In this document: positions 1-45,947 of the stretch, piece by piece | How the letters are laid out: each line of letters opens with the position of its first letter | How positions within the stretch are numbered: position 1 is the first letter of the stretch | Assembly: GCA_001460835.1 (NCBI GenBank) | Contig: CYKH01000513.1 | Coordinates: forward strand, 4,463 to 50,409 | Length of the DNA stretch: 45,947 nt | Source: Bodo saltans | Taxonomy: Eukaryota; Euglenozoa; Kinetoplastea; Eubodonida; Bodonidae | Reading direction: 5' to 3' | Position numbers and translations under genes: made by a program | The notes under the pieces: generated by a model | The model's database searches: none | Seen by the model: only the letters and a program-made list of their open reading frames with translations | What the model was told of the DNA's origin: nothing

Positions 1-1893
1 TCCCCTGCATTATTCGAAACGACGGGAGTGTTGCTCCCTAGTGCACCGTGGTCCTTGACGATGCAGCAGATCTTAAAGATCCGGCAAGAATGCAGCACCA
101 ACACGACCATCAGCATGAACGATTGGCGGGAGATCGCCACCACCATCTTAGGCATGCAGAGTGCCCACGCATCGTCCCTCTTTGACGCGTTCTACAGCCT
201 CAACCAGCCCTCGCTGAAACAAGAGTCTCGCATCGAACACAGCCGAGTGCTTCTCGGGAAGATGGGGGGCGCAGTGGACGAGGCCAAGTGGTCGTCGGTG
301 TCGTCGAGCCGCGTGGTGAGCCTCCCTGGCCTATCCATGTTCCTCATGGCGCAGATGTTTTTAGAGCGACCCCCTAAAGCATCCGTAGGCGAGGGCAATC
401 CCGAGACAATCCTTACCTTCGTCAAGCAGCACCTGCACGACTTCGTTAGTTCGTCCACTGTGACGAAGCCCGGCCGTGTGACGCTCAACGATGTCCAAGA
501 GCTGCAGTTGCTTCTGCGTGAGGTGGCCAACGGTGTGGAGCAGCCCTTCGGCACTAGTCTTGGCTTCCTATGGACACGCACGGAGAAGACCATTGATGTT
601 GCCGTATTGACGCAGTTTCTTCGCCCTCGCATCGTGCTGCCTGCGGATATTCGTGCGCAGGGCTTCCCGAACAATGTGGTCACGGAGAAGACCATTGATG
701 TTGCCGTATTGACGCAGTTTCTTCGCCCTCGCATCGTGCTGCCTGCGGATATTCGTGCGCAGGGCTTCCCGAACAATGTGGTCACCAAAGGCATCGTGAG
801 CTCGGTCCACATCCAGCCCAACCCAATGAACGCAGGGCCTGCGAACTCAGGCACTACGTCGTCGAAGTTCCCCAGCGCCACCTTCCGCATCGCCAAGAGT
901 GCGCACGACGTCCAAGAGCTGCAGCTGCTTCTGCGTGAGGTGGCCAACGGTGTTGAGCAGCCCTTCGGCACTAGTCTCGGTTTCCTATGGACACGTACGG
1001 AGAAGACCATCGATGTTGCAGTATTGACGCAGTTCCTTCGTCCACGTATTGTCCTGCCTGCGGATATTCGTGCGCAGGGCTTCCCGAACAATGTGGTCAC
1101 CAAAGGCATCGTGAGCTCGGTCCACATCCAGCCCAACCCAATGAACGCAGGGCCTGCGAACTCAGGCACTACGTCGTCGAAGTTCCCCAGCGCCACGTTC
1201 CGCATCGCCAAGAGTGCTCAGAGTAGTTTCTACGTGACGGCAGAGCTCCCAAGCACGACGCTGTCGCAGCTCTCCAATTGTAGCGTTGCACTCGGCCCAG
1301 TTGCTGGAGTGCTGTCCATCGATCGATGCGAGAACACCACCATCTCTGCCTTATGCGGAGCAGTGGTGCTGAGCAACTGCCGCAACGTTACCCTGTGCAT
1401 CTGCACGAACACTCCACCGGTGCTGGGCGACGGAATTCTATCCAACGAGGACGTACGCATTGCCCCGTACAACACGCATTACTCCACGCTGGAGGAGCAC
1501 CTGCTCTCTTCTGGGATCAATCCGAAGCTGAACTTGTGGCGCTGCGGCATCGCGAACCCTTTCCAACTCCCCCCAGCAGAGTTCTCCTCCGTTTCGTTTC
1601 CGATTGCTCCCCAAGGACAGGCGGTAGTCACCACCCGCACCAACCCAGTACCACTTCCAAAAGCCTACAGCGATGCCCTTGCTGCACGAGTGCTGCGGTT
1701 CCAGCAAGTCTCCTCCATGTTGCAGCAAACGTATCGTCAATTAGAAACCAGCGGCAGGAAAGATTTATCGGAGGGACTTCGCCAAAAAGTGCACAGTATG
1801 TTCTTAGATTATTTATACGACAACGGTCAAGCCAAGAGCCTTGTTGATCTCCTTCACCAAAACGCACCAACGGCCACATCAGTGCCACGGTAG
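1..1893 (+). CDS. TBCCD1: TBCC domain-containing protein 1 (TBCCD1)-like, 5' partial
   Basis: The reading frame is open from base 1 to the TAG at 1891-1893, so the true start may lie left of the window; the first in-frame ATG is at 61. The C-terminal part (about nt 1220-1560) has the cofactor-C/CAP right-handed beta-helix pattern of TBCCD1: short strands with SNCSVALGPVAG, then SIDRCENTTISALCG and a later APYNTHYSTLEEHL segment, the TBCCD1 hallmark following the helix. TBCCD1 proteins associate with centrosomes or basal bodies, and in trypanosomes with basal-body and bilobe structures; a role here in flagellar-base organisation is inferred. The middle (nt 493-1224) holds a 315-bp tandem duplication, with a 102-bp duplication nested in its first copy; both keep frame but make the protein about 139 residues longer than a single-copy version. 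The repeats look artefactual. RP2 and TBCC are the related alternatives; the C-terminal segment favours TBCCD1. Confidence 0.82.
   Translation, partial: SPALFETTGVLLPSAPWSLTMQQILKIRQECSTNTTISMNDWREIATTILGMQSAHASSLFDAFYSLNQPSLKQESRIEHSRVLLGKMGGAVDEAKWSSVSSSRVVSLPGLSMFLMAQMFLERPPKASVGEGNPETILTFVKQHLHDFVSSSTVTKPGRVTLNDVQELQLLLREVANGVEQPFGTSLGFLWTRTEKTIDVAVLTQFLRPRIVLPADIRAQGFPNNVVTEKTIDVAVLTQFLRPRIVLPADIRAQGFPNNVVTKGIVSSVHIQPNPMNAGPANSGTTSSKFPSATFRIAKSAHDVQELQLLLREVANGVEQPFGTSLGFLWTRTEKTIDVAVLTQFLRPRIVLPADIRAQGFPNNVVTKGIVSSVHIQPNPMNAGPANSGTTSSKFPSATFRIAKSAQSSFYVTAELPSTTLSQLSNCSVALGPVAGVLSIDRCENTTISALCGAVVLSNCRNVTLCICTNTPPVLGDGILSNEDVRIAPYNTHYSTLEEHLLSSGINPKLNLWRCGIANPFQLPPAEFSSVSFPIAPQGQAVVTTRTNPVPLPKAYSDALAARVLRFQQVSSMLQQTYRQLETSGRKDLSEGLRQKVHSMFLDYLYDNGQAKSLVDLLHQNAPTATSVPR
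493..1224 (+). repeat. 315-bp in-frame tandem duplication inside TBCCD1
   Basis: The segment starting GTCCAAGAGCTGCAG at 493 recurs at 910. Copy 1 is 493-909 (417 bp, because it carries the 102-bp internal duplication); copy 2 is 910-1224 (315 bp). Aligning the shared 315 bp by eye I count about 14 differences, all synonymous, clustered in the first half. Synonymous-only divergence suggests two alleles or paralogues under selection rather than a fresh slippage event. Confidence 0.92.
579..782 (+). repeat. 102-bp exact tandem duplication (nested)
   Basis: Bases 579-680 and 681-782 are identical by eye, adding 34 codons in frame. It lies within copy 1 of the 315-bp duplication and encodes a second identical run beginning EKTIDVAVLTQFLRPR. 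Confidence 0.93.
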
Positions 1894-2015
1894 GTGCTGT
1901 GGCTCTTCAGTTGAAGATCACGGTGAAGGTTATCTTCTCTCACATAAAAGCAAAGAGCCGTCAAACTACACGGCGTAGAGCCAACCAACAAACAACTAAC
2001 CCAACCAGATACAAA

Positions 2016-2041
2016 CTCTTTTTTATTTCAATTTAGTTTAG
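2016..2041 (+). promoter_or_regulatory. Probable trans-splice acceptor for dynein-2
   Basis: A T-rich pyrimidine tract (2016-2029) is followed by AG dinucleotides at 2035-2036 and 2040-2041, just upstream of the ATG at 2055. This is the usual kinetoplastid spliced-leader addition layout; the exact AG is not determinable here. Confidence 0.6.
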
Positions 2042-2054
2042 CGTCATCATAGAC

Positions 2055-5000
2055 ATGGAACACGCAGGTACAGTGGCGACTGAGGCACTCGTGGTGAGCA
2101 TTGCTCAGCGCTACTTACAAACACGTTTTCCAAAACTGAAGACCACACGCCAAGACGGCTCTGTGGTATTTTTATTTCCTGCGTTGAAGGACAACTCTCA
2201 ACTGAGCGACGTTGTGGAGCGTATGGTGATCACCTTCGTCAAGGAGCTCACAGGCCGCACTAAGGTGCGCTTCCCGGGCGAGTCGAAGGAGGCGGACTTC
2301 CAACAGATCCGCAGCCAAGCCGATTCCTTCAACGCCTTCATGGAACGCCTCGGAAGCGACGGCCTTCCTGACCTCGGTTCCCTCCCACCCCATCCCGCCA
2401 TCGCCAACATGATGACGCTCCTGTACAAGGACGCCATCGCCGAGACTCCTGGACTGTTCTCCATCACTAACTTCCCCACAAGTCTTTGCCCTACCGGTGC
2501 AAGGTTCGATGTCACAATGCGTCGTGCACTGTGCGTTACGGCGTTCGCATCCGTTGAGCAGGAGGACGAGGACGCCCCTGCATTGAACCACACCGACTCC
2601 TTCCTTGCCCCACTCGATGGAGCTGCTGAGGCGGCGAGGATGCAGTCATCGATGGTTGTGTTTGAGGGCGTGACGGGAAAGATTGTGCTGGACACCCGAT
2701 CTATCGCTGCAGTGCTGGCGCCCCACTCCACCGCCCCGGTGGAGCAAGTCCTTCCCACCCAGTGGCGCCACAAGTCTTTTAGCCTTCAAGAGGCGGGAGA
2801 AGTGCTGGGCATGGTGTACAAGTCCCTGATTGCCTTCTGGGAAACCAACACCCACACCGATAAGGTGAAGGTGAATGCAATGTCGTTGATGGCCATTGTT
2901 GCCGGAGATGTTCGCGACTACTGCAAGGAGCAGATCACACTGGAAAGCAGTGATCTACACGGACCGTGGCGCATGCCGAAGCAGCTGATTGAAAAGGTGC
3001 TCGAGACGTGCCGATTGTGGCAGCAGTACTGCCGCCAGCTGGTGGAAACTGACTGGAAGGACTGGGACGGTGGCCACTTCCACGATGAAAGCTTCGACGC
3101 GTTTATCAAGCGCCTGCGTGATGTCTCGACGATCCGTAACTTGGTGGAGTGCACAGCGACGCTGACCACAGTGCCCTTCGAAATGCAACCCGAGCAGATT
3201 TTTGAATCGTGCAGCCTCGTAGACGCGACACGCACGCCCCAGAGCACTTGGGACGCCGCGGTGGCTGCCTTTGAACATGAATTCTCACTTGTGGAGGACA
3301 TGCTTCGTGGTAGCGTCCGCAAGCGCATTGAGAATTCCTCTGGTGATGCCCAGATCCGTGTTGTTCAGCAATACGCCCCCCTTGTTCGCCGGCCGGCAAT
3401 CATGTCCGCCCTCGGTCAAGAGCTTGAGACTGTTGCCGCGCACCTCATGAACAAGCTCGACGCTGCCAAGCAGCGCTTCCTTAAGACCAGCAGCACCATC
3501 ACAGGAAGCGGAGGGGTGTTTGAAGTACAGCGCATTCGTGTGGCGAAGGCATGCTTGACCTCCTGCGGCCCGATTGTAGAACGTGGCCGCTCTGTGTTTG
3601 GGCACTCCTCTCCCCTTCAGCGTCGCGTGGAGGAGGCTGCGCTTGGAATTGTCAAACTCACCGCCACGGAGGAGAACAAAGCCCTCGACAGCTGGAAGCA
3701 ATCCATCGAGACCCGCTGCTCCCGCATCAACTCGTTGGACCGTGCCGTGGTCATCGCCGCTGAGGGGAGTGACTTCTTGACGTGTGCAGTGAACCCAGAG
3801 GTCAACGAACTCGTGACGGAGTACAAAAGTGTCCAGTCAATTGCGACTGCAGGTAGCGCAGTGCTGGGCAACAACGCTGAGCGCACCCTCCAGACCTGCG
3901 AGAAGCTCCTTCAGACCGCCATTCGCACTCAACAGCTGGTGGCTGCCTTCAACAACTTGCAGCGACAAGTCCTACCTCCATGCCGGGATATGATGGAGAG
4001 CCTCAACCAACAGTGCATCAGCCAGATCTGCAGTGGTGGGGCCAAGCAGCGCATCATCCCCTTCTCCAACTACAGCGAGCTCGACGCACTCAACCAGCGA
4101 TTCTACTCCTCCCTGGAGACGCTGAGCAACCAAAACCGCCACATTCGCCGCTTCCACAATGATTTCGCTACCCAAGTGATCGACCTGCACAACGTTGACT
4201 TACTGCGCAGCATGGACCAGTGGCGAGCCATTGCCGACGGCATGCGCACCACCTTCGATACGTTCATTAAGACCCAGCAGCTGAAGAACCATGACCGCTG
4301 GCGCCGCCACTGGGACGCACAGCTGTACAAGGCGCTGGAGTGCCAATACCGTAAAGGGCTGGAAAACCTTCACGAGAACATGCAGGAGTTCAAGGTGGAG
4401 CTTGTCTTCAAGCAAGGCCAAGTGCAGTTCCGACCGTCCTTTGAAGCGATGCGTGAGGCGTACTACGTGAAGGTGCGAGAGTTCGTGTCGCTTCCCCAGC
4501 GCTTCCGCGGCATGCAAGCCAAGCGTGAGGCAGGTGACGCCACTCCATACGAGTACTTCCCCCTTATGCCTGCTGCCAACGCTGAGCGCATCACCACCGT
4601 TCACATCAAAGCAATGGAACTCTTTCAAAAACTTAACAAGGTGCGCAAGGCGTTCCGTGATTATGTGGCCGCTGGTGTGTGCGGCACCAATGGTGCTCCG
4701 GACTTAGACTCTGTCGTTGACCTAGTCGTCACCGAGTTACCGCATTGGGTGGACGGGTTTAAGCTAGTGCGTGACCGCATGAAGAAGACCAGCACCATCG
4801 AGGAGGCCATCCGGGTGGACTGCTTCACCGTCTCCACCACTCCCATGAAGGCGGCGATTGAGGGGCAACTTCGTAAGCTGGAGGACTCGCTAGTCCACAG
4901 CCTGCGCAAGGCGATGCAAAAGCGCCTCGGTCAGATTGATGACTTTGTCTTATTTGCGTCGAATATTATTGAACGGCAACCAACGACACTTGATGAGGTT

Positions 5001-7847
5001 GGTAGGGCAAACAAGGCATTCCATCAGTTCAAAGAGGAGCTTCCCCTATTCGAAGCAAAGTTCAAGGAGATTGACGACATGAACAAGATTCTGCGTACTG
5101 TGTCTGGCGCCTCGATGGAGATGAACCTCACACGATCCCGCTGGGAGCATCTGATGGATGCGATGTCGTCCCACCATAAGATTATTGAAGCATCTGTCTC
5201 CAAGATGCGCGTGTCGATTGACTCGATGATCGCCAAACATTTCAAGGATGTTGAGCGGTTTGCAAAAGCGTGGGACAGCAAGAAGCCAACTAGCCTGAAG
5301 GCATTCAAGAATCGCCAAGAGTTTATTGACAAAGGCCTAAACTACGTGAAGGAACAAGTGCAACTGCTGAATGAACTCGTTGCCGCATCCCGAGAGATTG
5401 AGGCCAAGTGCGATTACTTTAAAATTGTCGCCCCTGAATTGACGCAACTTGACAGCGTCCAGCGCGACATCGACACCCACCACGCCATGTGGCTTCTGTA
5501 CGAGCGCTTTGAGAGTGCGCTGGACAAACTTCGCAGCGAGGACTGGTTGACTTTCCGATCCCACACGTATCTGTTCGATGACTTTGTGAAGGAGTGGCGT
5601 GAGTTGACAGAGCATCAGCTCTCCACTGCTGTGGGAGGTGATAAAAACATCGTGCTTGGGTACCTCAACAAGCTTATCGATGAGTGGCAGGCTGCTGTGC
5701 CTTTGTTGAAGTTTGTTCGTGGTGAGGGGATGATGTCTGAGCACTGGGGTGAAATGTTCCGCTTGTTGGAAATGGAAAAGGGCATGACCAGTGACAAGCT
5801 CACCTTCGGCGATATTCTCAATAAGCACACCCAGCTGGTCGCGAAGGAGAAGGAGATCAAGCACCTCCACAGCAGAGCTCAAGGTGAAATCCAGATTCGT
5901 GATGCCCTGCAGGATCTACGTACGTGGGCTCTGGAGGCCACCTTCACATTGGTTCTTCCCCAAGACTCCACCAATAAAGTGCAACTTATCACGGAGTGGA
6001 AGGACATCATGACGCAGGTGAGCGATAACCAAGCACTTCTCGGCTCGCTCAAGGACAGCCCATACTTCCCTCGCTTTGCCGATGAGGCACAGGGGTGGGA
6101 GGCGAAGCTGTTGCTCGTGTCGGAGTACCTCGTCCTCTTGAATAACATTCAGCGCAAGTGGACCTACCTGGAGCCTCTTTTCGCACGAGGCGCTCTTCCC
6201 AATGAGCAACCTCGCTTTAAGCGCGTGGACAAGGAGTTCGTCGGCGTGCTGCGTGAGATTGAGACGGACCCACGAATTATGTCCCTTGCTGTGCACACGG
6301 ACTACTCCGAGAAGCTCAAGTCCATCCAGGAGCAGATGGAGCGTTGCCAAAAGGCACTGAACGAGTTCCTGGAACAGAAGCGTGACAAATTCCCTCGCTT
6401 CTACTTTATCAGTGATGAGGATCTCCTTGAAATTCTTGGCCAGAGCAAAAACCCCGCCGTGATCCAGGCCCATCTCAAGAAGCTATTCATGGGCATCAAC
6501 ACTGTGCTGTTTAACGACAAGCACACCACCATCACCCATATGGTCTCATCAGATGGGGAGCAGGTGCAGATCAAGCAGGAGGTGGGGATTACCGACAACA
6601 ACGTGGAAGACTGGCTCATTCGGTTGGATGGGGCGATGCGTGATACACTCAAGGAATCGCTGCGTCAATGTCTCTCCCGCCAAGATGCCACCAAGTCCGA
6701 GGTGGTTGCCGCGTACCCCTCCCAGATCCTTCAAGTGGCTGAGCAGATCTTCTTTGCTCAGATGGTGGAGAAGGCGATTCCTGTAAACGACCTGAACAAC
6801 GTCCTGGCGACACAGAAGCAGAAACTGCAGGCTCTCACCTCAGTCTCCTACAACGGAAATGTTGTGACGGAGTTGAAGCTCAAGGCACTTATTCTTGACG
6901 TCATCCACAACATTGAGGTGGTGGAGCTGCTGCTCGAGAAAAAGACGCGTAACGCTGCTGATTGGTGGTGGCAGAAGCAGCTGCGTTACTACGCAGACAA
7001 CGAGAAGGGGTGTGTGCTGCGCATGGTGGACACGTGCTTTGCCTACACATACGAGTACCAGGGCAATGCTGCGAAGCTTGTCCACACGCCGCTCACAGAC
7101 AAGTGCTACCTTGTCCTCACCAAGGGTATGGATCTTGGCTACGGCGGCAACCCCTACGGCCCAGCAGGTACTGGTAAGACGGAGTCGGTTAAGGCGCTCG
7201 GTAGTGCCATGGGCCGCCAAGTGCTCGTTTTCAATTGCGACGAGGGCATTGACTTCAAGGCGATGGGGCGCATCTTCGTTGGTATTGTCAAGTGTGGCGC
7301 CTGGGGCTGCTTCGATGAGTTCAATCGCCTCAAGGTTGATCAGCTTTCTGCTATCTCGCAAATGATTCAAGTTATCCAAGAGGCACTGAAGAATAATGAG
7401 CCCTCATGCACATTGCTCAGCCGTCTCATCGATGTCAACCCCAACTCCGGCATCTTTGTAACCCTCAACCCTGCAGGTAAGGGCTACGGTGGTCGTAGTA
7501 AGCTGCCCGATAACTTGAAGCAGTTGTTCCGTGAGGTGGCCATGAGTGTCCCTGACAACGAGCTCATCACAGCCACGATGCTCCTCTCGGAAGGCTTTAC
7601 CCATGCCAAGTCCATCTCTAAGAAGGTGGTGGAGGTGTACAAACTCAGCAAGCAGCTGATGAGTCAGCAGCAGCACTACGACTGGGGCCTCCGTCCCCTC
7701 AAGGCGGTCCTGCGCCTTGGCGGGTCGCTAGTGCAGCAGTGGCGACGCGACAACAAGGGTGGCGCTGCCACGGAGCAACAAGAGTGCGAACTGATGGTGC
7801 AGTCCCTCCGTATTAACACCCTCAGTAAACTCACCTTCGAGTATTAA
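2055..7847 (+). CDS. DHC2: Cytoplasmic dynein-2 (IFT) heavy chain, part 1: tail, linker, AAA1
   Basis: The gene encodes the motor subunit of the retrograde intraflagellar-transport dynein. It starts at ATG 2055, 14 bases past a splice-acceptor AG. The first ~1,100 residues are tail, followed by the linker, then AAA1 with P-loop GPAGTGKTES near residue 1702 (nt 7159), sensor/Walker B CFDEFNR near residue 1752, and the LNPAGKGYGGR motif typical of dynein AAA1. Spacing and wording match the DYNC2H1 class (DEGIDFKAMGRIFVGIVKCG) better than axonemal or cytoplasmic dynein-1. The frame ends at a stop created by a 31-bp duplication at 7811-7872; the protein clearly continues in the next frame, so this is not a natural C-terminus. 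Trypanosomatids carry two dynein-2 heavy chains (DHC2.1, DHC2.2); I cannot say which this is. Confidence 0.93.
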   Translation: MEHAGTVATEALVVSIAQRYLQTRFPKLKTTRQDGSVVFLFPALKDNSQLSDVVERMVITFVKELTGRTKVRFPGESKEADFQQIRSQADSFNAFMERLGSDGLPDLGSLPPHPAIANMMTLLYKDAIAETPGLFSITNFPTSLCPTGARFDVTMRRALCVTAFASVEQEDEDAPALNHTDSFLAPLDGAAEAARMQSSMVVFEGVTGKIVLDTRSIAAVLAPHSTAPVEQVLPTQWRHKSFSLQEAGEVLGMVYKSLIAFWETNTHTDKVKVNAMSLMAIVAGDVRDYCKEQITLESSDLHGPWRMPKQLIEKVLETCRLWQQYCRQLVETDWKDWDGGHFHDESFDAFIKRLRDVSTIRNLVECTATLTTVPFEMQPEQIFESCSLVDATRTPQSTWDAAVAAFEHEFSLVEDMLRGSVRKRIENSSGDAQIRVVQQYAPLVRRPAIMSALGQELETVAAHLMNKLDAAKQRFLKTSSTITGSGGVFEVQRIRVAKACLTSCGPIVERGRSVFGHSSPLQRRVEEAALGIVKLTATEENKALDSWKQSIETRCSRINSLDRAVVIAAEGSDFLTCAVNPEVNELVTEYKSVQSIATAGSAVLGNNAERTLQTCEKLLQTAIRTQQLVAAFNNLQRQVLPPCRDMMESLNQQCISQICSGGAKQRIIPFSNYSELDALNQRFYSSLETLSNQNRHIRRFHNDFATQVIDLHNVDLLRSMDQWRAIADGMRTTFDTFIKTQQLKNHDRWRRHWDAQLYKALECQYRKGLENLHENMQEFKVELVFKQGQVQFRPSFEAMREAYYVKVREFVSLPQRFRGMQAKREAGDATPYEYFPLMPAANAERITTVHIKAMELFQKLNKVRKAFRDYVAAGVCGTNGAPDLDSVVDLVVTELPHWVDGFKLVRDRMKKTSTIEEAIRVDCFTVSTTPMKAAIEGQLRKLEDSLVHSLRKAMQKRLGQIDDFVLFASNIIERQPTTLDEVGRANKAFHQFKEELPLFEAKFKEIDDMNKILRTVSGASMEMNLTRSRWEHLMDAMSSHHKIIEASVSKMRVSIDSMIAKHFKDVERFAKAWDSKKPTSLKAFKNRQEFIDKGLNYVKEQVQLLNELVAASREIEAKCDYFKIVAPELTQLDSVQRDIDTHHAMWLLYERFESALDKLRSEDWLTFRSHTYLFDDFVKEWRELTEHQLSTAVGGDKNIVLGYLNKLIDEWQAAVPLLKFVRGEGMMSEHWGEMFRLLEMEKGMTSDKLTFGDILNKHTQLVAKEKEIKHLHSRAQGEIQIRDALQDLRTWALEATFTLVLPQDSTNKVQLITEWKDIMTQVSDNQALLGSLKDSPYFPRFADEAQGWEAKLLLVSEYLVLLNNIQRKWTYLEPLFARGALPNEQPRFKRVDKEFVGVLREIETDPRIMSLAVHTDYSEKLKSIQEQMERCQKALNEFLEQKRDKFPRFYFISDEDLLEILGQSKNPAVIQAHLKKLFMGINTVLFNDKHTTITHMVSSDGEQVQIKQEVGITDNNVEDWLIRLDGAMRDTLKESLRQCLSRQDATKSEVVAAYPSQILQVAEQIFFAQMVEKAIPVNDLNNVLATQKQKLQALTSVSYNGNVVTELKLKALILDVIHNIEVVELLLEKKTRNAADWWWQKQLRYYADNEKGCVLRMVDTCFAYTYEYQGNAAKLVHTPLTDKCYLVLTKGMDLGYGGNPYGPAGTGKTESVKALGSAMGRQVLVFNCDEGIDFKAMGRIFVGIVKCGAWGCFDEFNRLKVDQLSAISQMIQVIQEALKNNEPSCTLLSRLIDVNPNSGIFVTLNPAGKGYGGRSKLPDNLKQLFREVAMSVPDNELITATMLLSEGFTHAKSISKKVVEVYKLSKQLMSQQQHYDWGLRPLKAVLRLGGSLVQQWRRDNKGGAATEQQECELMVQSLRINTLSKLTFEY

Positions 7848-7872
7848 CACCCTCAGTAAACTCACCTTCGAC
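7811..7872 (+). repeat. 31-bp tandem duplication breaking dynein
   Basis: The 31-mer beginning TATTAACACCCTCAG at 7811 is repeated immediately at 7842, differing only in its last base. Because 31 is not a multiple of three it shifts the frame by +1 and makes a stop at 7845-7847. Removing one copy joins RINTLSKLTF to DDARLFNGIIGD, which is continuous dynein sequence. Confidence 0.96.
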
Positions 7873-10800
7873 GACGCTCGTCTCTTCAACGGCATTATTG
7901 GTGACATCTTCCCAGGAACAGCCATTCGAGAGATTTCATACAAGGAGCTTGAGGCCGCCATCCACAGCTCCGTTGATGTCCTCGGCCTGCAGCACAGCCC
8001 CGTGCAACTCCACAAGACGCTGCAGCTGTACGAAGCAATGAACCAACGCATGGGAGTTGTACTGGTAGGCCCTAGCGGATCCGGCAAGAGCACTCTCCTC
8101 AAGATTCTGCGCAAAGCACTCCAGACACTTGGCGTTGAGGTGCCGCAGCACACCATGAACCCCAAGGCCCTCCCCCGTCAGCAGCTTCTCGGCTACATGG
8201 ACCCGGACACACGTGAGTGGTACGACGGTGTCCTCTCCGCCGCTGCTCGTCGTGTGGTGAAGGAACCTGCTGCGGTCAAGTCGTGGATCTTCTGTGACGG
8301 TGATATTGATCCAGAGTGGGTGGAGTCGTTGAACTCTGTGCTCGATGACAACAAGTTGCTCACGATGCCCAATGGTGTTCGCATACAGTTCGGTAACAAC
8401 GTCAACTTTGTGTTTGAGACACACAGCCTTGAGTTTGCGTCGCCTGCAACCGTATCCCGCATGGGCATCATCTTCCTCTCGGAGCAAGACGTCGACCTCA
8501 CCTTCCACATCAAGGCCTTCATGGCACTTCAAGAGGCTGATGTGCGTGCGCGTATTGGTGCGTGGGTGGAGCAGTACGTCCCCCGTGCCGTCGCGATGGC
8601 CAATGATTCAGGCGCCTTAGTGGTGCCCACCACTCCCATGGGCCTCCTCAACGCCGCCTTGAACCACGTGGTCGACTCCATTAATGAAATGGACTTCGCT
8701 ACGTCCCTTGCACGTGGTCTCGCTGCCACGATGCTACCAAAGAGCCACGCTGAGTTTGCCAACAAGGTTCTGGAACTCACCAAGCAGCGACCAGTCAACC
8801 CCCAACGCCCCCTCGCTACGTACGTCAACCGAAACGACGGCCAAACGCGGGAGTTCAGTGCCCGCGGCACCGGTGCGCTTCGGGGAGCCTCAGCGGACGT
8901 GTTGCGTCAACGTGAAAAGCCGGTCGTCCCCACCGCAGAAACAGAGAAGCTAGAGGCCACCCTTGCACCCCTGATGAAGCACAGCCAACCCTTCTTGTTG
9001 GTAGGGCCTGAGGGTGCAGGCAAGTCCATGACGCTGTCCTCTTGCTTCGCTGCTGAATCGTCTTCCCGCGTTTCTGTCATCCACTGCAGCGCCCAAACCA
9101 GCGCGCAGCACCTCATTCAGAAACTCACGCAGTTGTGCTCAGCGTACAGCACCAACGCCGGTAAAGTCCTCCGGCCCAAGGAGGGCGACAAACTAGTCTT
9201 GGTGTTGAAGGACCTCAACCTGCCCAAGCCCGATAAGTACGGCACCGTCCAGCTGCATTCATTCCTCCAGCAACTTCTTCTTTACCGTGGTTTCTACGAC
9301 AACGAGTTGGAGTGGGTAGGTATCGAGCGTGTGCAGATCGCTGCCAGCATGAACCCAGAGGTGAGTGCAGGCCGCTACCCCGTCTCCCCCCGACTGCTTG
9401 CCATCATGAACATTGTCTACGTGGACTATCCTACCAAAGAGTCTCTGCAGTTGGTGTACGCCTCGTACTTTAGCGTAGTGCTCAAGGCGCCACAGTTTGC
9501 GGAAGGCCCTGACTACGAGGGTGGTGCACAGCTGGCCAACTTTGCCTTGACCGTCTTTGATAAGATCAAGCGCAGGTTTGAGGGAGAGGAGCACGCCCAC
9601 TGCGTCATATGCCCCCGTGACATCATCTCCATGATCACCAATTGTCTGTCCTACGCACCCGAGTGCAGCTCCATTCCTGCCCTGCTAGCATATGAGGCCA
9701 GCCGTCTGTTCTCTGATCGGCTTTCCCGACCTGATGACCGATCTCGCGCTGAGAAGATCTTTGTGGAGCAGCTCGCCACGATTGGGTTTGCCGTCAACAA
9801 GGATGATCGTGATAAGTTTGCCTATGTCTCGTGGTCCTCGGACTGGAATCCAGTGACCGGTGGGCGCCAACTTGCCCTCAAGTCGTACGAGGACCTTGAA
9901 AAGGAGGTCAAGAATGGAGTGATGCGTTACGGTCGTGAGGTGCGTGACTTAAACATTCCTCTCATCCCAGAGTCCGTGCAGTGGGTCGCCCGTATGGACC
10001 GCGTGCTGTCCAAGCCTGGTGGTCACCTGCTGCTGGTCGGCCGCTCGGGCGTTGGTCGCCGTGCTGCCGCTACGGTGGCTGCTTACCTCATCCGCATGGA
10101 GGTGGTGATGCTCAACATGACACGTGACTACAGCATCAAGTCGTTCCGCAATGACCTGCGGAGTGTCCTGCAGCGCGTAGGATCACAGAATGAGCGCATC
10201 ATGCTGCTCGTAGAGGACCATAACTTTATCCAAGAAACATTCCTGGAGATGATCAACAGCCTCGTCTCCAGCGGCGAGGTGCCCGGCCTCTTCTCCCCAG
10301 AAGAGATGGATTCAATGCTGGCCCCCCTCCGCGAAGAAGCGTCCAATGAAGGCTTCATGGGGAACATTTCCTCGTACTTTGTGCGTCGTGTGTTCCACAA
10401 CCTTCGCGTGTGCATCATCATGGATCCTCGCAATGAGCTCTTCCGCTCACGCTGCCAGGCAAATCCTGGTCTGTTGACCTGCTGCTCTGTGCAATGGCTC
10501 GGCACGTGGTCCAGCGACGGTACACGCTCTATCTGCAAACAGAACCTCCAAGATGTTATCAAGCAGCTGGACGGCACAGAGGCCGGGAAGGGGTTCGCCC
10601 TCCATCGGGAGATGTATTCGATTCACGACTCCCTCGGCGCACAAGCAACCCCTCTCCTCTTCCAAACATTCATGGAGACGTATCGCAAGATCTACACCGC
10701 CAAGGACAAAGCGTCTGCTAGCGGTTTGGAGCGCCTTGAGGTTGGTCTCACGAAGCTCCTTGAAGCAGAGGCGAATGTGTCGAAGATTCGAGAAGACGTT

Positions 10801-10986
10801 GGGGCCAAGAAGGTGGAGATGGAGCGAATGCAGATTGAAGCCGACTCTGCTTTGACAGAAATTCAAAAGAGCATGGAGGACTCCAAGGAGCAGCGCGACA
10901 ACGCCGAGGAACTGACTGTACGCCTTGCTCAGAGTCAAGAAGGCAAAGGTAGAATCAGAGCTCAGTGGTATTCAGCCCACCCTTGA
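7843..10986 (+). CDS. DHC2: Dynein-2 heavy chain, part 2: AAA2-AAA4 and stalk start
   Basis: This is a continuation of the same dynein gene; the frame is coding from about 7843, although its first ATG is at 8002. It carries AAA2 with P-loop GPSGSGKST (nt 8068) and [20 protein letters not shown] as Walker B/sensor, AAA3 with GPEGAGKS (near nt 9004) and [15 protein letters not shown], and AAA4 with a degenerate P-loop GRSGVGRR (near nt 10039), where the usual lysine is arginine, as in DYNC2H1. A helical stretch rich in Lys, Glu and Gln from about nt 10700 begins the stalk coiled coil. The frame runs out at 10984-10986 after an apparent single-base shift near 10935-10950; residues beyond [12 protein letters not shown] are not dynein-like. 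Confidence 0.93.
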   Translation: [1047 protein letters not shown]

Positions 10987-11248
10987 TGCTGCCAAGGAAG
11001 CAGTGAGCGGCATCAAGAGCGATGCCCTCAATGAGATCCGTGCTCTCAAGGCACCACCGGAGCCTATTCGTGATGTGCTGGAGGGTGTGTTGGCATTGCT
11101 TGGCATGTCGCCACACGACGAGGAGGCGGAGGGGAGCTCGTTTGATGACAAGTGGAGAGTCCCACGGCGTGCTGACATTCCACAGACACGGATGCTGCAG
11201 GGTGGGGCACTGGTGCAGTTGGAGGACGTTGAGTACCGTGTTGTGTAG
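10925..11248 (+). CDS. DHC2: Dynein-2 heavy chain, part 3: stalk coiled coil, truncated
   Basis: In the +1 frame the stalk continues with KKAKVESELSGIQPTLDAAK and then IRALKAPPEPIRDVLEGVLA, the well-conserved dynein-2 sequence just before the microtubule-binding tip. The match weakens after SFDDKW and stops at 11246-11248; another frame from 11248 (VLEIANIMLESE) may be further damaged coding sequence. The microtubule-binding domain, second stalk helix, AAA5, AAA6 and C-terminal domain (over 1,000 residues in the family) do not appear in the window. The truncation coincides with a switch to a surface-protein gene, so a misjoin is the likely cause. Confidence 0.82.
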   Translation: MLRVKKAKVESELSGIQPTLDAAKEAVSGIKSDALNEIRALKAPPEPIRDVLEGVLALLGMSPHDEEAEGSSFDDKWRVPRRADIPQTRMLQGGALVQLEDVEYRVV

Positions 11249-11368
11249 TGCTGGAGATTGCGAACATTATGCTGGAGTCTGAGCTTCGAATTTGCGCCTA
11301 TTCTGGGCCTATTCTTTTGCTGCCACAAGTTGCTTGTGCGAAACAGCTTCTCTCGTATCCCTTTTTAG

Positions 11369-11467
11369 TTACCGTACGACCCCCTTCATACCGTCCAGTG
11401 TCTATATCGTCCTTTTGACCCTTTTTGAGGATACGTCCAGGACGATACAGAGGGGGTCGTACGGTAA
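11369..11467. repeat. Foldback element with 17-bp perfect inverted repeats
   Basis: TTACCGTACGACCCCCT at 11369-11385 is the exact reverse complement of 11451-11467. A second, inner pair (TATCGTCC at 11405-11412, GGACGATA at 11440-11447) nests inside, and flanking inner bases also partly pair, so most of this 99-bp stretch could fold into an imperfect hairpin. The loop contains a pyrimidine run with an AG that could act as a splice acceptor. No clear target-site duplication is seen. Confidence 0.8.
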
Positions 11468-11503
11468 ATTCTAGTAAACGAAACAATTAATGAACATCGC
11501 GCA

Positions 11504-11704
11504 ATGAGTCCAATTTACGACGAGCCAGAGATCATTTGGAACTCAGTCATGACGATGACACTTCTATCTGTGCTCATGGGAACGTTGGGTAAACCTGCCG
11601 ACGCTGCCTGCACGATGTACTGCAACTCCGGTGATACACTTTCTGGATCCACCTGTACCAACACTGTTACCGCCTCCGACAACTGCCCAAGGGTTTTCTC
11701 CTAG
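11504..11704 (+). CDS. Cys-rich surface protein, part 1: signal peptide and first Cys repeats
   Basis: This is the N-terminal part of a gene that continues in other frames to 14364. Candidate starts are ATG 11504 or ATG 11549; the latter gives a cleaner signal peptide (MTMTLLSVLMGTLG, then ADAAC). Cysteine-rich sequence follows at once. The frame ends at TAG 11702-11704 because one G seems to be missing from a G run at about 11690-11693; restoring it would make CPRGFSPSGGRC, matching a later CPSGYSLHGTTC repeat. A 5-codon upstream ORF (11490-11507) overlaps the 11504 ATG. The protein is predicted to be secreted or membrane-anchored; the family is not recognised by name. Confidence 0.65.
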   Translation: MSPIYDEPEIIWNSVMTMTLLSVLMGTLGKPADAACTMYCNSGDTLSGSTCTNTVTASDNCPRVFS

Positions 11705-12752: not shown

Positions 12753-12896
12753 TGCTGCCGGACATGAGCGTCGCGGAGCGCGTGTGCGGGCGCATGCTGG
12801 TGCGCGGGTGCATCGCGTACGAGTACAAGCGCTCTTTTTTTTTTGCTGTGGGTGGGCGTGGACGGGTTTGCTGGTATTCTGCTGAAAAAAAAAAAA
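12622..12896 (+). repeat. Scrambled patch: shuffled copies of downstream sequence joined by homopolymers
   Basis: Segments here duplicate the downstream gene out of order. 12622-12700 matches 12958-13037, 12702-12738 matches 13311-13350, 12750-12790 matches about 13356-13397, 12794-12834 matches about 13458-13498, and 12845-12884 matches 13137-13177. The joints carry A11 (12739-12749), T10 (12835-12844) and A12 (12885-12896). Small mismatches show that the copies are not exact. This looks like misassembly or gap-filling rather than a gene. Confidence 0.85.
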
Positions 12897-12903
12897 TGCG
12901 TCG

Positions 12904-14712: not shown

Positions 14713-14723
14713 GGAGGGATGAA

Positions 14724-15332: not shown

Positions 15333-15350
15333 AATGCATTGTGTTCATAG

Positions 15351-32254: not shown

Positions 32255-32298
32255 ATTATACTCTTCTTTTTTCTTTTTTTTTGATTCACGTCTTGAAG

Positions 32299-32376: not shown

Positions 32377-32429
32377 AGAAAGGTGAATAACGTCAAACAC
32401 TAACGTCTACTGTCCACCTCTCTAAATAT

Positions 32430-34640
32430 ATGCCATCATCCCCGCCCATGCTAAGTGCAAGTGCCGTTCAATCACCAGAAGCCCCAGCCAGGTCTCGGCT
32501 ATCGACAAGTCATCCTATCCAGTTTTCTCCCAGCGGTTCCACACCAGGAGTTGTTACTAATACCGCCCGCACCCCAGAAGTTCAGAGCGCTGCTTCTGTC
32601 GATTCACCCCCTCGAAGCGCCACAAATCAGCGCCTTGCGGCTGCACTGAAGTCATTACGAGTGAACTCATCAACATCGTCTTCGTCTTCTACGTCCTCGT
32701 CATCGTCACGATCTTCATCTGCCAGCAACGCGTCCACTGCGATGGATGATGAACCTGCTGTAGTTCCGCAGCAAACTCCTGTTCGTCATTATGACGTCGT
32801 TCCTGCCGCGCTGACGCCTCCAGGGAACCAGTCATTCCGTGAAGTCTCAGTATCGAGCCCACCGAACCAAGTGGACATCAAGCAGCAGCAAATAGGCTAC
32901 GATCATGCATTGATGTCCTCCTGGGCCAAAGTATCAGACCTCGCATCGGATATTGTGTCGCAACTACAATACGCACTTCCACAGGAGCATCTCCGTTCGC
33001 TTGCGTTGTACAGAGATTCTATTTCCGAGGCACTCCCAAAGGTTGCGGCAAGCATGCACGATCCCGCATCCTTTATCTCAACCTCACCGCTGAAGCGTGG
33101 CGGTGCTAGCACGTCCGTTGGGGAGGTTGTACGAACTCCAACGGTCGATGCGCTTGATCAGGTGGACGCCTTCCGCGATGAAGTGGAGTTGCTCATGAAA
33201 CACCACCAGCTCTCGATCGAGTCCCGCATTGAACGAAGGAAAGCGCAGCTGCAAGAAGTGCAAAATACCAACGCCCTCCTCACTCTACAGAAAGAGCGAT
33301 TGGAACGCATCTTCAACGATCACCACGACGAAGATGTTCAAACAGAGATTGGTTACTCTTGCAGCGTCGCCTCAATTCACGAAACATTAAAGGAGCTGTC
33401 AGAACGCATCGAACTTCATCAGCAACGTGAGCAGGCTGTTGATGCGACGTTTATTTCCAAACAAGAGGACACTCCACAGGACAAGCGGACAACCGAAGGG
33501 AGCGATGTGGTTCCTCTGAAAAGTCAATCACGCCCGCGTGAAGCGTTAGATGAGCTCACGGATCGAGCGCTGCCTCTCAACTCAGCCGTGGCGTTCTTGT
33601 CCATGTGGACCAATGCTCAGCAGCACCATGCCCGTGCCTACGCAGGGTATCAAACGTTCCTAAAGGAGACGGAAACTGAAGAAGCTCGGACACGACGGTG
33701 GAAGAACCGGTTTGCGTTGAATCATCCGGAGGCGTTCGCTGAGTATGTCGATGATTTCCAACAGCGTGTGAATGAACAGCGTCAGGTCTACTTGAACGAA
33801 ATTTCTCCGGTGGAGACGTACGTCAACACAATTTCCGAGACGCAGAATGAAAACAAACATCGAAAAATGACTCGTAGCAGAAGTCCAGTTCGTGACCGCT
33901 CTACTGCTCGATCTGTGAGTCCGCGCCTGCCAGACTTGCGACTGGCTGAGTTGGCTGTCGTTCAACGTCACCCTGTCGATGAACCGCAGCGCGACGAGGA
34001 TAGTTCGAGAGCAGCAGTGGTGAGTCCGACGTGTCTTTCCGCACCAAAGTCGCCTCGTGTCAACAATCGAATCAACGAATTTGTGTCGAAAGACACGCCG
34101 CGTGTGCTGTCCACCACAAGCTACCCTAGCAACAACAACGTTACCAACAAGGACGGACCAGTAAGTCCTTCGTACTCGCAGGTCTCGGGAGTTTTGCCTA
34201 AGTCACCACGCCGCCCTTGCCCTCTTAGCAATGATGACCTCGCACTCCTGCCCGATACTGCACGAACAGACGTTTCCGTCGGTGGTCGTTCCACCACACG
34301 CTCTGCTGCGGCCAGGTCGCCCTCGCGCCGTGAGGCGGCATTCCGCAACAACGGCATGGTGCACGTTTGTACTTCTGAGCAAGCGGTAGATCATTTTCTC
34401 GTTCCTCGCCAGGCCAGCGCAACCAACCCGCGTGTGAACGGTGGCTCTGATCTCCCCTCGCTTCAAACACTACTGCTTCGCAAGAAGAAGCTTCAAGCAG
34501 AGCTTGCTCAGCTCCAAAACCTCGCGAAGAAAGAAATGGTTGTGCAGATGAGAATGATGGATGGTGCACAACGTACTGCCGAGCAGCGTCTTGCAAGGGC
34601 TCGCCGCCGCCGAGAGGCTCCTGTCTTGGCTGAAATCTAA
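32430..34640 (+). CDS. Coiled-coil protein, unknown function
   Basis: The protein has 736 residues from ATG 32430. The N-terminal third is Ser/Pro/Thr-rich with a serine run (SSTSSSSSTSSSSSRSSS). Residues ~240-345 form a long coiled coil (DEVELLMKHHQLSIESRIER, then LLTLQKERLERIF). A further helical block (RWKNRFALNHPEAFAEYVDD) follows, then a low-complexity stretch with repeated SP motifs (RSRSPVRDRS, SPRLP), possible proline-directed phosphosites. The C-terminus is a second coiled coil (LLLRKKKLQAELAQLQNLAK) ending very basic (RLARARRRREAP). It could be a cytoskeletal scaffold, but nothing diagnostic is visible. The frame is intact. Confidence 0.7.
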   Translation: MPSSPPMLSASAVQSPEAPARSRLSTSHPIQFSPSGSTPGVVTNTARTPEVQSAASVDSPPRSATNQRLAAALKSLRVNSSTSSSSSTSSSSSRSSSASNASTAMDDEPAVVPQQTPVRHYDVVPAALTPPGNQSFREVSVSSPPNQVDIKQQQIGYDHALMSSWAKVSDLASDIVSQLQYALPQEHLRSLALYRDSISEALPKVAASMHDPASFISTSPLKRGGASTSVGEVVRTPTVDALDQVDAFRDEVELLMKHHQLSIESRIERRKAQLQEVQNTNALLTLQKERLERIFNDHHDEDVQTEIGYSCSVASIHETLKELSERIELHQQREQAVDATFISKQEDTPQDKRTTEGSDVVPLKSQSRPREALDELTDRALPLNSAVAFLSMWTNAQQHHARAYAGYQTFLKETETEEARTRRWKNRFALNHPEAFAEYVDDFQQRVNEQRQVYLNEISPVETYVNTISETQNENKHRKMTRSRSPVRDRSTARSVSPRLPDLRLAELAVVQRHPVDEPQRDEDSSRAAVVSPTCLSAPKSPRVNNRINEFVSKDTPRVLSTTSYPSNNNVTNKDGPVSPSYSQVSGVLPKSPRRPCPLSNDDLALLPDTARTDVSVGGRSTTRSAAARSPSRREAAFRNNGMVHVCTSEQAVDHFLVPRQASATNPRVNGGSDLPSLQTLLLRKKKLQAELAQLQNLAKKEMVVQMRMMDGAQRTAEQRLARARRRREAPVLAEI

Positions 34641-35527: not shown

Positions 35528-37966
35528 ATGTTTTTCCATCCACGTGTGCCCAACAATCCGAGTCAACAACTCCGGAGTCTTCGGGCATCACGTTTTTGTA
35601 ATACGACAGTGACACTTCTTTTTCTAGTCATCAACATCGTTACAGCCGTCGATAGCAGCTCAGTAGTTCCATGCCCAACTGGCACGTCTGTTTCTGTCAC
35701 CATGGCAACCCACTTCCAAGGAAGCAGTGCGATTTTCTTCCAGCAGTGTGACTTCGTGCATGAAGTATTCCTCGCGAATACTCTGTCCAACGTCAACATC
35801 AGTTTTGTTGGTTGTGTGTTCCACAAAGGAAACGGCTCCATTCGGTTTGATCCTTCAGGTACATTTACCAACGTGGTGGTGGAGGTATCCAACAGTACCG
35901 TTGTCCACTGGTGGCTCATCATGTCCAGTAGTGGCGGACTAGCAGTCATTGAGGACACGTCCCCTGTTTCCGATTCCCTTTTTATTGTTGGTGGTGCAAC
36001 GTCCGGACTACCGTACCTATCTGGAGTATCGGTGCTTGTTTCGCAGCTGCTATGGACGGCAGCCTGCGTGAACAGAAGCAGCAATTTGTACGGAACCAAC
36101 GCGATTGGCCTACCATCGTACTTCACTGCAGGTGCGTGGCGCAGTGTTGACAGTCAAGGTTTCACTGGTGAAATGCAACATTGGGCACCATCGCTCTGGT
36201 ACGCCACGGGGACTGCTACTGTTGTCACACTAACCATAGTCCTATCTGGCGTTCAGACGATAGCTCTCGTAGGCTCTGTTGCAGCAGAGCTTTCAGCGAT
36301 CACATCAGGCTCCTCACAAGCATCGCTCAACGTTGCGATTGATGCGTGCGCTGGACTACCAATCGTAGCGCACGTTCATCTCGTCGCGTTTGAACTTTCT
36401 ACCACTTTAATCGCTTCCTCCGTCACAATTCAAAGCTCCGTGCTGCAGTTTGGCAACCCAGGTTACGCCGCATCAGGCGTCCTTCCTGGTGCATCAGCCT
36501 CACTTATTCGTGTTCAACCTCTTGGTAGCACGCCCTCGGACAACCTCGTAAGAAACGCAGCGTTCTCCGTTAGCTCAACGAACGTCACCATCGCCGTAGT
36601 TCCCGCGCCACGCGTCTCGTTGGTAGGCAACGTGGACATTCCTGACGGCGTCACCCCTCGATGGCGCCGGAACGTTACTGTTGGTGGCGCGTCTCTCGCC
36701 GCAACTGTCCTCCCCGCACCCATCGTGCCATCGCCTTTAGTGTCCACGGTGGGCGGCGTGAAACTAATAGGATCGATAGACGGGTACAGCAGAACTGCGC
36801 TTGCCTCCAACACTGTCTCGATAGCCGTGACCAACTCCTTTTTTAGGGCGGGACCGGCGCTTTCAACGATGGATTCGGTATCCATCTCCGCCGGATGGCT
36901 TAACAACTCGATCGTTGCTCAAGGTGTAGATGTGGTGAGCAGTTGGATTCATCTTTCACGATTGCCTCAACTTGTAGCTGCCACGATCTTCATGACGAAT
37001 GCAACGATGGAGGCAACTGGTGTGGACCGGTCGTGGATGGAGCTTGCCGCCAGTGCCATGAACACCACCGCAACGCATCCATTCTACCAAAATGTATGGA
37101 ACGACGCAGATGTCATCATGAGGGCAAGTTCCTCTCAAATTGGAGTTGCGTCTGCAGCAGGTTGGGCATTCTCCGTGTTCGCGCACACAGTCGTTATTGC
37201 TGAGTTTGGCTCTGGTGGATTGATGCACAGCAGCATCACAATTAGTGGAAGTCAGTGTCGATGCAGCGACCGATGTCATGCAGTCAATATCACCGGTGGT
37301 ATTTCAATGCTCGGCCATCGCCAAGTAGGGCGAGTGAGTGCTGACGTGCTTGTCAACCGAACAGACTCGAAGTTGACCAACGTCACGATTGCCTTTGACG
37401 CTTTTACGTTCCGCAGTCGTGTTGCATCGAAAGCTGTGACCCTTTCAACGTATTGTGCAACATTTCTTCGTCTCGGCGACAAAACATCTCCCACTGCTCC
37501 ATGTGCCTCAGTATCTCATCGGCTCACACACTTTGCTGAAGAGTTACTGTTGGATACCATCTCCAACATTCGTCTCACCATAGATGCATCCGTCGTTAGC
37601 ATCTTTGAGCCAATGACCAGCACCGCAGAGCGAAGCACAGTTCTCACCAATGCAGCGTTACAAGCATTCATGTTTCCTCCCCAAGGAACGGCATATCAGC
37701 GCCAAGGAGTGTGGCCAGCGCTCCTTCAGATCACGGCGTATCGTATGTATAACTTTTACTTTCGCCTCGGGAGTTGCTCCGTCGACGCAGGATGGGGGCA
37801 CGATGTCACGCTGATGTTTCAACAAAACGTTGATCCCTCTCGATCAAGCGCATTGGTTGAGTCTACAACGTTAACCCTCCTTAACACAACTATCACCCAC
37901 CGGGGTTGGCAAACGCGTGCAGTTGCGTGGATGTCGCCCTCAACATCGTTATGTCAGGAATCTTAG
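35528..37966 (+). CDS. Giant secreted/surface protein, part 1: signal peptide and beta-repeat ectodomain
   Basis: ATG 35528 begins a basic N-terminus and a hydrophobic signal segment (TVTLLFLVINIVTAV), followed by SSSVVPCPTG. The mature part is almost entirely short beta-strand-like stretches rich in Ser, Thr, Val, Ile and Asn. A recurring motif N-[VIL]-[STR]-[VIL]-x-x-x-S appears many times (NVSISF, NVTIAVV, NVTIAFD, NIRLTID), so glycosylation sequons coincide with strand starts. This suggests a solenoid or beta-helix-like extracellular domain. The frame shifts by +1 near 37910-37966, ending artificially at TAG 37964-37966. I cannot name the family with confidence; a bodonid lineage-specific surface family is the likely home. 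Confidence 0.75.
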   Translation: MFFHPRVPNNPSQQLRSLRASRFCNTTVTLLFLVINIVTAVDSSSVVPCPTGTSVSVTMATHFQGSSAIFFQQCDFVHEVFLANTLSNVNISFVGCVFHKGNGSIRFDPSGTFTNVVVEVSNSTVVHWWLIMSSSGGLAVIEDTSPVSDSLFIVGGATSGLPYLSGVSVLVSQLLWTAACVNRSSNLYGTNAIGLPSYFTAGAWRSVDSQGFTGEMQHWAPSLWYATGTATVVTLTIVLSGVQTIALVGSVAAELSAITSGSSQASLNVAIDACAGLPIVAHVHLVAFELSTTLIASSVTIQSSVLQFGNPGYAASGVLPGASASLIRVQPLGSTPSDNLVRNAAFSVSSTNVTIAVVPAPRVSLVGNVDIPDGVTPRWRRNVTVGGASLAATVLPAPIVPSPLVSTVGGVKLIGSIDGYSRTALASNTVSIAVTNSFFRAGPALSTMDSVSISAGWLNNSIVAQGVDVVSSWIHLSRLPQLVAATIFMTNATMEATGVDRSWMELAASAMNTTATHPFYQNVWNDADVIMRASSSQIGVASAAGWAFSVFAHTVVIAEFGSGGLMHSSITISGSQCRCSDRCHAVNITGGISMLGHRQVGRVSADVLVNRTDSKLTNVTIAFDAFTFRSRVASKAVTLSTYCATFLRLGDKTSPTAPCASVSHRLTHFAEELLLDTISNIRLTIDASVVSIFEPMTSTAERSTVLTNAALQAFMFPPQGTAYQRQGVWPALLQITAYRMYNFYFRLGSCSVDAGWGHDVTLMFQQNVDPSRSSALVESTTLTLLNTTITHRGWQTRAVAWMSPSTSLCQES

Positions 37967-44344: not shown

Positions 44345-44616
44345 TGGCGCTCGTATTCATGTCAACAATTCCATTGCTGCAGCGTCATCCTCGACTAGTC
44401 AACGCCGGAACGATACGGCATTACCAAGCACTTGTGCTCTCGCAGCGCGCAACAAACTTGCTGCTGATCTTCTTGCTCGCTCCGTTCGCTACAGTACCAG
44501 CGTCATCGATGTGCTGGATGTCATTCCTGCCACCAGCGTGACCCCTACGTTGGCAGCCCGTCAAACTTCGGCCACAGTGTCCATTGACAGCTCATCAACC
44601 GTCGCGTCCATGACAT
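44069..44616 (+). repeat. 274-bp exact tandem duplication causing a frameshift
   Basis: 44069-44342 recurs as 44343-44616 with no difference seen by eye. Because 274 = 3 x 91 + 1, the second copy shifts the frame. Both copies contain the same spurious 66-codon frame in another phase (starting at 44070 and 44344). Confidence 0.95.
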
Positions 44617-45947
44617 CTATGATCTTTCCAACATATAATCAATCTGCCAGTATGGTGACAATTGCTGCTGCTGTGGATGTTTCCCTTGTACGGGCCCCGT
44701 ACACTGCATTCTCACCGAGCAGCAACCTTACTTCAGTAGGCATGTCACAAATACCCCTTGGCACGCAGCCTCCAGTTATTGTTGCGACCATCGATGATAT
44801 TCAAGTCAATGTTCACGTCTCGAGAGGATCGTTGCTGACGATTGTCGTATCATCTGGCGCTCCACAGGAGCCTTCGTCAGGTGTTCTGCCAATCGGCTGC
44901 AGTCGCCCAGTGTTTAGCGTAGGGCGTGCCTCCGTCTGGCGACGCGTTGTCAGCATTGTGCCGGGAGCACTAGTGTATGCGAATACTTCAGACCTTGTCT
45001 TCGCAACAACTGTTGCGGCTGCATCGTATGTTTCTGCTACCGCGCCGAATTCCTGCGCCGTGACTGCGTGGGCCTTACCACAGTGGTGGTTTCAGAGCGG
45101 GAATATTTCGTCGCTGCGCTGCTCTCTTAATGTTTCGGGTGGAGGTATTCGCCTAGGAGAATCAAAGGTGCCATCTTCAGTTTGTGCTATTGCGCCGCTT
45201 ATTATTGCTGCATTTGCTGTTGACGGCTCCGATCGATTTGCCAATGTCTCCGTTCCCCTCACGCCAGTGTCTCAATCAGCAACTCAATCAAGTGCTCAGC
45301 AGCATCGTGCACTCAATGTGTTGTCGATTGGAGGACCGATTTACACCACTGGTGTCGCCCGAAACAAATCCATGATTTCGGTATCTCTCAGCAATCAAGC
45401 GTCGCTCATCATCTCCCAAGAATCCACGATGACTCCTCCAAACAGTAACACCCTACCCTTCTCCCATTCGGCCGTGGTCAGCATGACGGACGTTCCAGAA
45501 TCGGGCAGTGTTGTGTTGAACGCAGAGGGCCAGTCTGTTGTCACGTTAACCCATCCTGTATCTCTTGGCGCCTCAACATCGAACGATCTCATCATCCGAC
45601 TTCCACCCCTTGCACTTCTCTCATTCAAGAGCGTTGGTTCAACAATAAGCAATATTACCCTCACTGCTTCAGATCAGTCCTTATTGCAAGGATCTGGCGA
45701 GATCATTGGAATTGCTCTTCAAGGATCATCTCGATGCAATATTGTCAACGTCGTGGTGCAAGTTTCAAATCGATCTCGGGTGTCTGGTGCATGGAGTTCG
45801 CTTTTTTCGATGGATATCGACGACATTGACACTTCAGTTTCTGTACAGCGCGCACAAAACATTTCAGTTTCGGTGGACAATGCCCCTTATGCTGGAACAT
45901 TTACCATGGGCGTGCTGATAATTCCTGAAGCGCAAGCCAGCATCAAT
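44610..45947 (+). CDS. Giant surface protein, part 4, 3' partial
   Basis: After the 274-bp duplication the frame starting at 44610 (MTSMIFPTYNQSAS) stays open to the last base of the window, about 446 codons. The protein style is unchanged, with NVHVSRGSLLTIVVSS, NVVVQVSNRSRVSG and NISVSVDNAP repeating the sequon-strand motif, and two nearby Cys (NSCAVTAW, SLRCSLNVSG). No transmembrane segment or stop has been reached, so the protein exceeds about 3,300 residues. By analogy with the gene at 11504-14364, a Cys-rich region and membrane domain may lie beyond the window, which is inference. Confidence 0.72.
   Translation, partial: MTSMIFPTYNQSASMVTIAAAVDVSLVRAPYTAFSPSSNLTSVGMSQIPLGTQPPVIVATIDDIQVNVHVSRGSLLTIVVSSGAPQEPSSGVLPIGCSRPVFSVGRASVWRRVVSIVPGALVYANTSDLVFATTVAAASYVSATAPNSCAVTAWALPQWWFQSGNISSLRCSLNVSGGGIRLGESKVPSSVCAIAPLIIAAFAVDGSDRFANVSVPLTPVSQSATQSSAQQHRALNVLSIGGPIYTTGVARNKSMISVSLSNQASLIISQESTMTPPNSNTLPFSHSAVVSMTDVPESGSVVLNAEGQSVVTLTHPVSLGASTSNDLIIRLPPLALLSFKSVGSTISNITLTASDQSLLQGSGEIIGIALQGSSRCNIVNVVVQVSNRSRVSGAWSSLFSMDIDDIDTSVSVQRAQNISVSVDNAPYAGTFTMGVLIIPEAQASIN

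Follow-up and report, generated by a model that had tools for sequence, protein, structure and literature searches.

Head-to-tail duplications within genes of a Bodo saltans contig are very probably assembly artefacts

We analysed a 45,947-base stretch of Bodo saltans DNA, here called the window (bases 4463-50409 of contig C259, which has 50,409 bases and opens with 4,462 bases that are all N), in which several genes carry direct, abutting duplications. There are nine such steps, of 315, 102, 31, 162, 174, 179, 60, 26 and 274 bp (Table 1), and we conclude that they are very probably assembly artefacts, in which overlapping contig ends were left unmerged and, in some cases, two versions of the locus were brought together. 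The original prediction had listed nine steps and read them as unmerged contig ends or alleles. Exact k-mer scans, Tandem Repeats Finder (TRF) and a mismatch-tolerant scan confirmed the nine steps (TRF gave no row for the 315-bp step and reported a single 3-copy array for the 174- and 179-bp steps), and the reading gains support from a single-copy paralogue, synonymous-only pairs, exact 40-bp runs, near-blunt junctions and a 300-N gap near one pair. Among the junction coordinates first proposed, 492/910 for the 315-bp step proved off by a base or so. The claim that every step falls in coding sequence is true but uninformative, since ~92% of the window is coding by the list of long plus-strand open frames, and nine of nine would arise by chance with p ~0.49.

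Four duplications (31, 179, 26 and 274 bp) had been said to shift the reading frame. In all four, the frame step from the left to the right open frame equals the unit length modulo 3, which is 1 for the 31-bp unit, 2 for the 179-bp unit, 2 for the 26-bp unit and 1 for the 274-bp unit. A single dynein-2 heavy chain, whose best PDB match is DYNC2H1, is divided between the open frames 2037-7844 and 7795-10983, and the Pfam AAA_6 profile is split across the 31-bp unit, with profile positions 1-253 in one frame and 247-327 in the other. A dynein-2 paralogue on contig C570, with an open frame of 4,253 codons, is 72% identical to the left frame as far as residue 371 of its fragment and 70% identical to the right frame from residue 362. 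These alignments overlap at residues 362-371, so that ten paralogue residues occur twice in the window, out of frame; the segment is thus present once in the paralogue and twice in the window, a comparison that applies to the 31-bp unit only. In the gene with the 60-bp duplication, the part with the first copy fits positions 184-283 of the HECT profile, while the 48 residues from the second copy onward gave no match when searched alone, a result to be read against a HECT match that was weak to begin with (E 2.5e-5).

Two pairs differ at synonymous sites only, as had been predicted. In the TBCC gene, the pair runs at an offset of 417 and then of 315, with the 102-bp duplication nested in version 1 alone. 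The two versions differ at 13 of 63 codons over 492-681, none of the changes being nonsynonymous (p ~2e-7 for a synonymous-only pattern in a simple neutral model with kappa 4; synonymous divergence, dS, ~0.33). Likewise, the 162-bp kelch pair differs at 8 of 53 codons with no nonsynonymous change (p ~3e-5 in the same model; dS ~0.28); the 174-bp pair does differ in protein. The TBCC differences affect 13 of 43 codons at 508-636 versus 1 of 54 at 739-900 (Fisher p ~7e-5), indicating that the versions converge abruptly. Against PDB the TBCC gene matched XRP2 alone, over the TBCC domain, which is uninformative on the duplications. Two versions of a locus are suggested only by the TBCC pair, the 162-bp kelch pair and possibly the 174-bp pair. 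The six exact pairs (102, 31, 179, 60, 26 and 274 bp) are identical and carry no allelic information; they may be overlaps between ends of the same version.

It could be argued that the in-frame pairs (TBCC 315 bp, kelch 162 bp and kelch 174 bp) are real repeats of long standing within these genes and subject to selection, with artefacts confined to the exact pairs. All three keep the frame, the copies of the 174-bp pair, located in a low-complexity tail, encode diverged protein sequences, and the kelch fold is itself repetitive. We nevertheless regard old repeats as unlikely: the TBCC and 162-bp kelch pairs have no amino-acid differences despite a dS of ~0.3, kelch copy 1 starts 8 bases from the 300-N gap and stops 40 bp past the last difference, and only one of the two TBCC versions contains the 102-bp duplication.

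Contig C259 belongs to a genome assembly of 29.29 Mb in 934 contigs, of which those sampled at steps of 20 (C20-C340) were longer than 10 kb in 17 of 17 cases, the smallest having 10,220 bases. Flagellar_rod (PF05149) had nine matches in this genome versus none in 14 control genomes, and we take the paraflagellar rod family to be a marker of Euglenozoa. The main open frames of the window are long, intron-less and all on one strand, as would suit a kinetoplastid; B. saltans genes are described as intron-less, and its fosmids as free of strand switching, in the available text of PMC2621209. The published genome of B. saltans Konstanz, as far as the available text of its report goes, has 39.9 Mb in 2,402 scaffolds with an N50 of 31.5 kb and was built with Velvet at k=41, SSPACE, GapFiller and IMAGE (PMC4728078). 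We infer that contig C259 is part of that assembly. At k=41, neighbouring Velvet nodes overlap by 40 (k-1), and the graph forms a cycle at any exact tandem repeat of at least 41 bp. Given the cycle, a single contig would not normally contain both full copies of the exact 60-, 102-, 179- and 274-bp units. The joins were probably made during scaffolding or gap-filling. Neighbouring short-read contigs, or ends extended during gap-filling, would have overlapped by 26-315 bp and been placed head to tail unmerged. Ends from the same version would give identical copies; ends that represent two alleles or strains at the locus would give diverged copies, synonymous-only in two pairs. Junction microhomology in the six exact pairs is 0, 0, 0, 0, 1 and 3 bp.

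We also counted exact shared runs within the window that measure 20-60 bp; four rows exceeding 60 bp were excluded, as were those at offsets 353 and 356, which duplicate the 174-bp pair versus the third copy. Five of the 20 distinct runs are exactly 40 bp; at least five at this length has p ~1e-4 to 3e-3 if each run has a 2.5-5% chance of it and 0.04 at 10%, values to be discounted, since 40-bp runs were looked for only once k=41 was known and runs from the same pair are partly dependent on each other. Two of the five are at diverged duplications, where kelch copy 1 of the 162-bp pair ends in one and copy 2 of the 174-bp pair opens with the other, before its first difference; the remaining three are in a patchwork at 12622-12904. 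If the contig comes from the published k=41 assembly, the 40-bp runs would be k-1 node overlaps. Control loci gave 13 runs of at least 18 bp, none of them 40 (L001, L018, L019 and L022 excluded), of which only five fell in the 20-60 bp range (37, 20, 20, 20 and 21), so that the control says little on the 40-bp peak. A constant k-1 overlap for every duplication was considered and ruled out, the exact units spanning 26-274 bp.

The patchwork, which the original prediction did not list, interrupts a Cys-rich gene whose homology to contigs C73 and C43 ends exactly at 12622. Its pieces match 12958-13036, 13311-13351, 13354-13398, 13451-13496 and 13137-13176; the first four keep the order of the source but skip parts of it, and the fifth is out of order. 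Runs of A, T and A follow the second, fourth and fifth pieces, respectively. The whole looks like concatenated graph tips.

To gauge how unusual the region is, we applied a strict tandem criterion (offset of at least 25 and match of at least 0.9 of the offset). This returned 7 duplications of at least 25 bp in the window versus 1 in 41 other loci (195,061 non-N bases, or 188,305 bases in 39 loci when two loci contained in a third are omitted), which are not a random sample, at least 20 having been selected for carrying a dynein domain. When the minimum unit is lowered to 20 bp, the counts are 7 and 2, respectively. Looser criteria add two control cases, in L032 (~402 bp, with an indel) and in L021 (82/73 bp), and duplications of 14-18 bp occur in four control loci (L026, L033, L037 and L038). 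The strict control case, L020 (C69, 1172-1757), is a 292-bp tandem duplication with 3 differences whose length modulo 3 breaks the frame, suggesting that the same type of error is present elsewhere at a lower rate. A further explanation is that the duplications are real: the region would frequently acquire exact tandem duplications within its genes, and copies that break the frame would be tolerated through dispensable paralogues or correction at the RNA level. We consider this very improbable indeed.

Several points weigh against the artefact reading. The case was judged from assembled sequence alone. The dynein gene changes frame near 10920 without a duplication and is truncated near 11230, upstream of a ~97-bp dispersed repeat, again not by a duplication; the very large gene at the right end shifts frame at 37875-37963 (~37900), where there is no duplication either. 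Other errors or real decay are needed for these three. The TBCC match stops 20 bp past the last difference, not 40, and among the exact pairs the lengths differ and the 40-bp signature is absent. The 174-bp pair, which differs in amino acids and length and could be a real low-complexity repeat, is the weakest case for an artefact. As to the tools, GapFiller is described, in the available text, as closing a gap only when there is overlap and the gap size matches, and is therefore not obviously at fault; IMAGE is described there as extending or merging contigs by local assembly. A gap of exactly 300 N might be an IMAGE default, although we do not count it as evidence.

The frame breaks without duplications (~10920 and ~37900) and the dynein truncation also fit a decaying region, in which real recent mutations would have accumulated and the dynein copy and its neighbours would be pseudogenes collecting duplications, small indels and truncations. 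The intact dynein-2 paralogue on C570 and the clustering of duplications on contig C259 are in keeping with such decay. It would have to accommodate, however, two diverged pairs whose synonymous-only divergence implies evolution under strong constraint, long frames between the junctions, exact joins with little microhomology, a k-1 run length that mutation would not be expected to produce, and hits to five different genes, several of them by exact copies. We therefore consider decay quite improbable as the source of the duplications.

If the duplications are assembly artefacts, the diverged copies may come from two strains in a mixed culture and not from alleles of one diploid, a possibility that we hold tentatively and would not favour. 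The dS of ~0.3 in the TBCC and 162-bp kelch pairs would suit two strains, as alleles with so high a value would be very unusual. Were one of them a minor strain at low coverage, this could also account for the hotspot. The published culture was xenic, although bacteria alone are named as other organisms in the available text (PMC4728078). Against two strains, and counting likewise against overlapping versions more generally, no near-identical second locus was listed for 1-20000, 26824-34640 or 45648-45947, together 28,117 of the 45,947 window bases; the search of 1-20000 scored 18 of 19 candidates and did not list the window's own place, and so was not exhaustive, and the contigs searched apparently all exceed ~10 kb. 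These searches listed only dynein loci, the Cys-rich family and the dispersed repeat, plus the window itself for 26824-34640 and 45648-45947. The right end of the contig (45648-45947), examined for sharing with another contig, found only itself. In a literature search, the 20 papers listed out of 3,816 included no long-read B. saltans assembly, which does not prove that none exists.

A displaced C-terminal half of the truncated dynein was not found, in that every contig with an above-cut-off AAA_9 match (17 of 17) matches the MT domain as well; contig C724 has one weak AAA_9 match below the cut-off, without an MT-domain match. Other dynein heavy chain loci are in a single open frame of 3,415-4,896 codons in 16 of 17 cases, a count that leaves out C69, C70 and C457, whose five partial, weaker domain matches (three over the cut-off) do not mark clear dynein genes. 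The dynein on C45 (L023, ~24217-24294) has a small frame change, and no duplication was found around it. The ~97-bp dispersed repeat, at 11370-11466, has inverted ends matching at 16 of 16 positions, resembles a miniature inverted-repeat transposable element, and has partial or full copies on 8 other contigs. The segment 35465-45947 holds one apparent Ser/Thr-rich gene with open frames of more than 3,400 codons, for which four pieces tested gave no Pfam match.

Table 1. Duplication steps and associated features of the window
Feature	Coordinates	Strand	Remarks
TBCC-gene tract, version 1	486-902 (about)	+	holds the 102-bp duplication; gene is open reading frame 1-1893
102-bp tandem duplication	579-680/681-782	+	exact, 3-bp microhomology, in frame
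TBCC-gene tract, version 2 (315-bp step)	903-1217	+	without the 102-bp duplication; abuts version 1 at 902/903
31-bp tandem duplication	7810-7840/7841-7871	+	exact; dynein-2 heavy chain motor, AAA_6 domain; frame step +1
Patchwork in Cys-rich gene	12622-12904	+	five 40-79 bp pieces copied from 12958-13496
Gap, exactly 300 N	26524-26823	.	ends 8 bases upstream of the 162-bp pair
162-bp duplication, kelch gene	26832-26992/26994-27154	+	8 differences, all synonymous
174-bp diverged copy	28849-29022 vs 29023-29201	+	with indels
179-bp tandem duplication, kelch gene	29023-29201/29202-29380	+	exact; frame step +2
60-bp tandem duplication	32048-32107/32108-32167	+	exact, in frame; near C-terminus of weak HECT-domain match
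26-bp tandem duplication	43473-43498/43499-43524	+	exact, 1-bp microhomology (to 43525); very large open frame; frame step +2
274-bp tandem duplication	44069-44342/44343-44616	+	exact; same very large gene as the 26-bp unit; frame step +1

The apparently broken genes of the window, including that for the cilium motor, are not to be read as biology. If this assembly serves as the reference for a free-living relative of trypanosomes, the dynein-2, TBCC, kelch, HECT-like and very large gene models would be wrong, and scans for pseudogenes, repeats and gene gain would be misled. Should it be borne out on more contigs, the 40-bp run signature may offer a cheap, reads-free screen for k=41 joins.

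False duplication is a known and well-described kind of assembly error. Its mark is adjacent, near-identical copies whose overlap gives a continuous sequence; in the window the frame arithmetic agrees in four of four cases, and the paralogue at the 31-bp unit has a single copy. In the available text of Kelley and Salzberg (2010; PMC2864568), 'duplicated overlapping contigs' are two contigs with versions of one region that are placed adjacent and mimic a recent duplication. The layout of overlapping ends is the same here, whereas their cases are vertebrate ones assessed with mate pairs, and ours involve 26-315 bp units in protist genes, with six pairs identical. The Vertebrate Genomes Project distinguishes, in the available text, heterotype and homotype false duplications, with gaps or incorrect gap filling between the false copies (PMC9516828). 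Those classes rest on read depth and k-mers, while the likeness here is drawn from the assembly itself, and the 300-N gap lies upstream of the 162-bp pair and not between its copies, where the heterotype class has its gap or unsupported join. With that difference, the diverged pairs of the window resemble the heterotype class and the identical pairs the homotype class.

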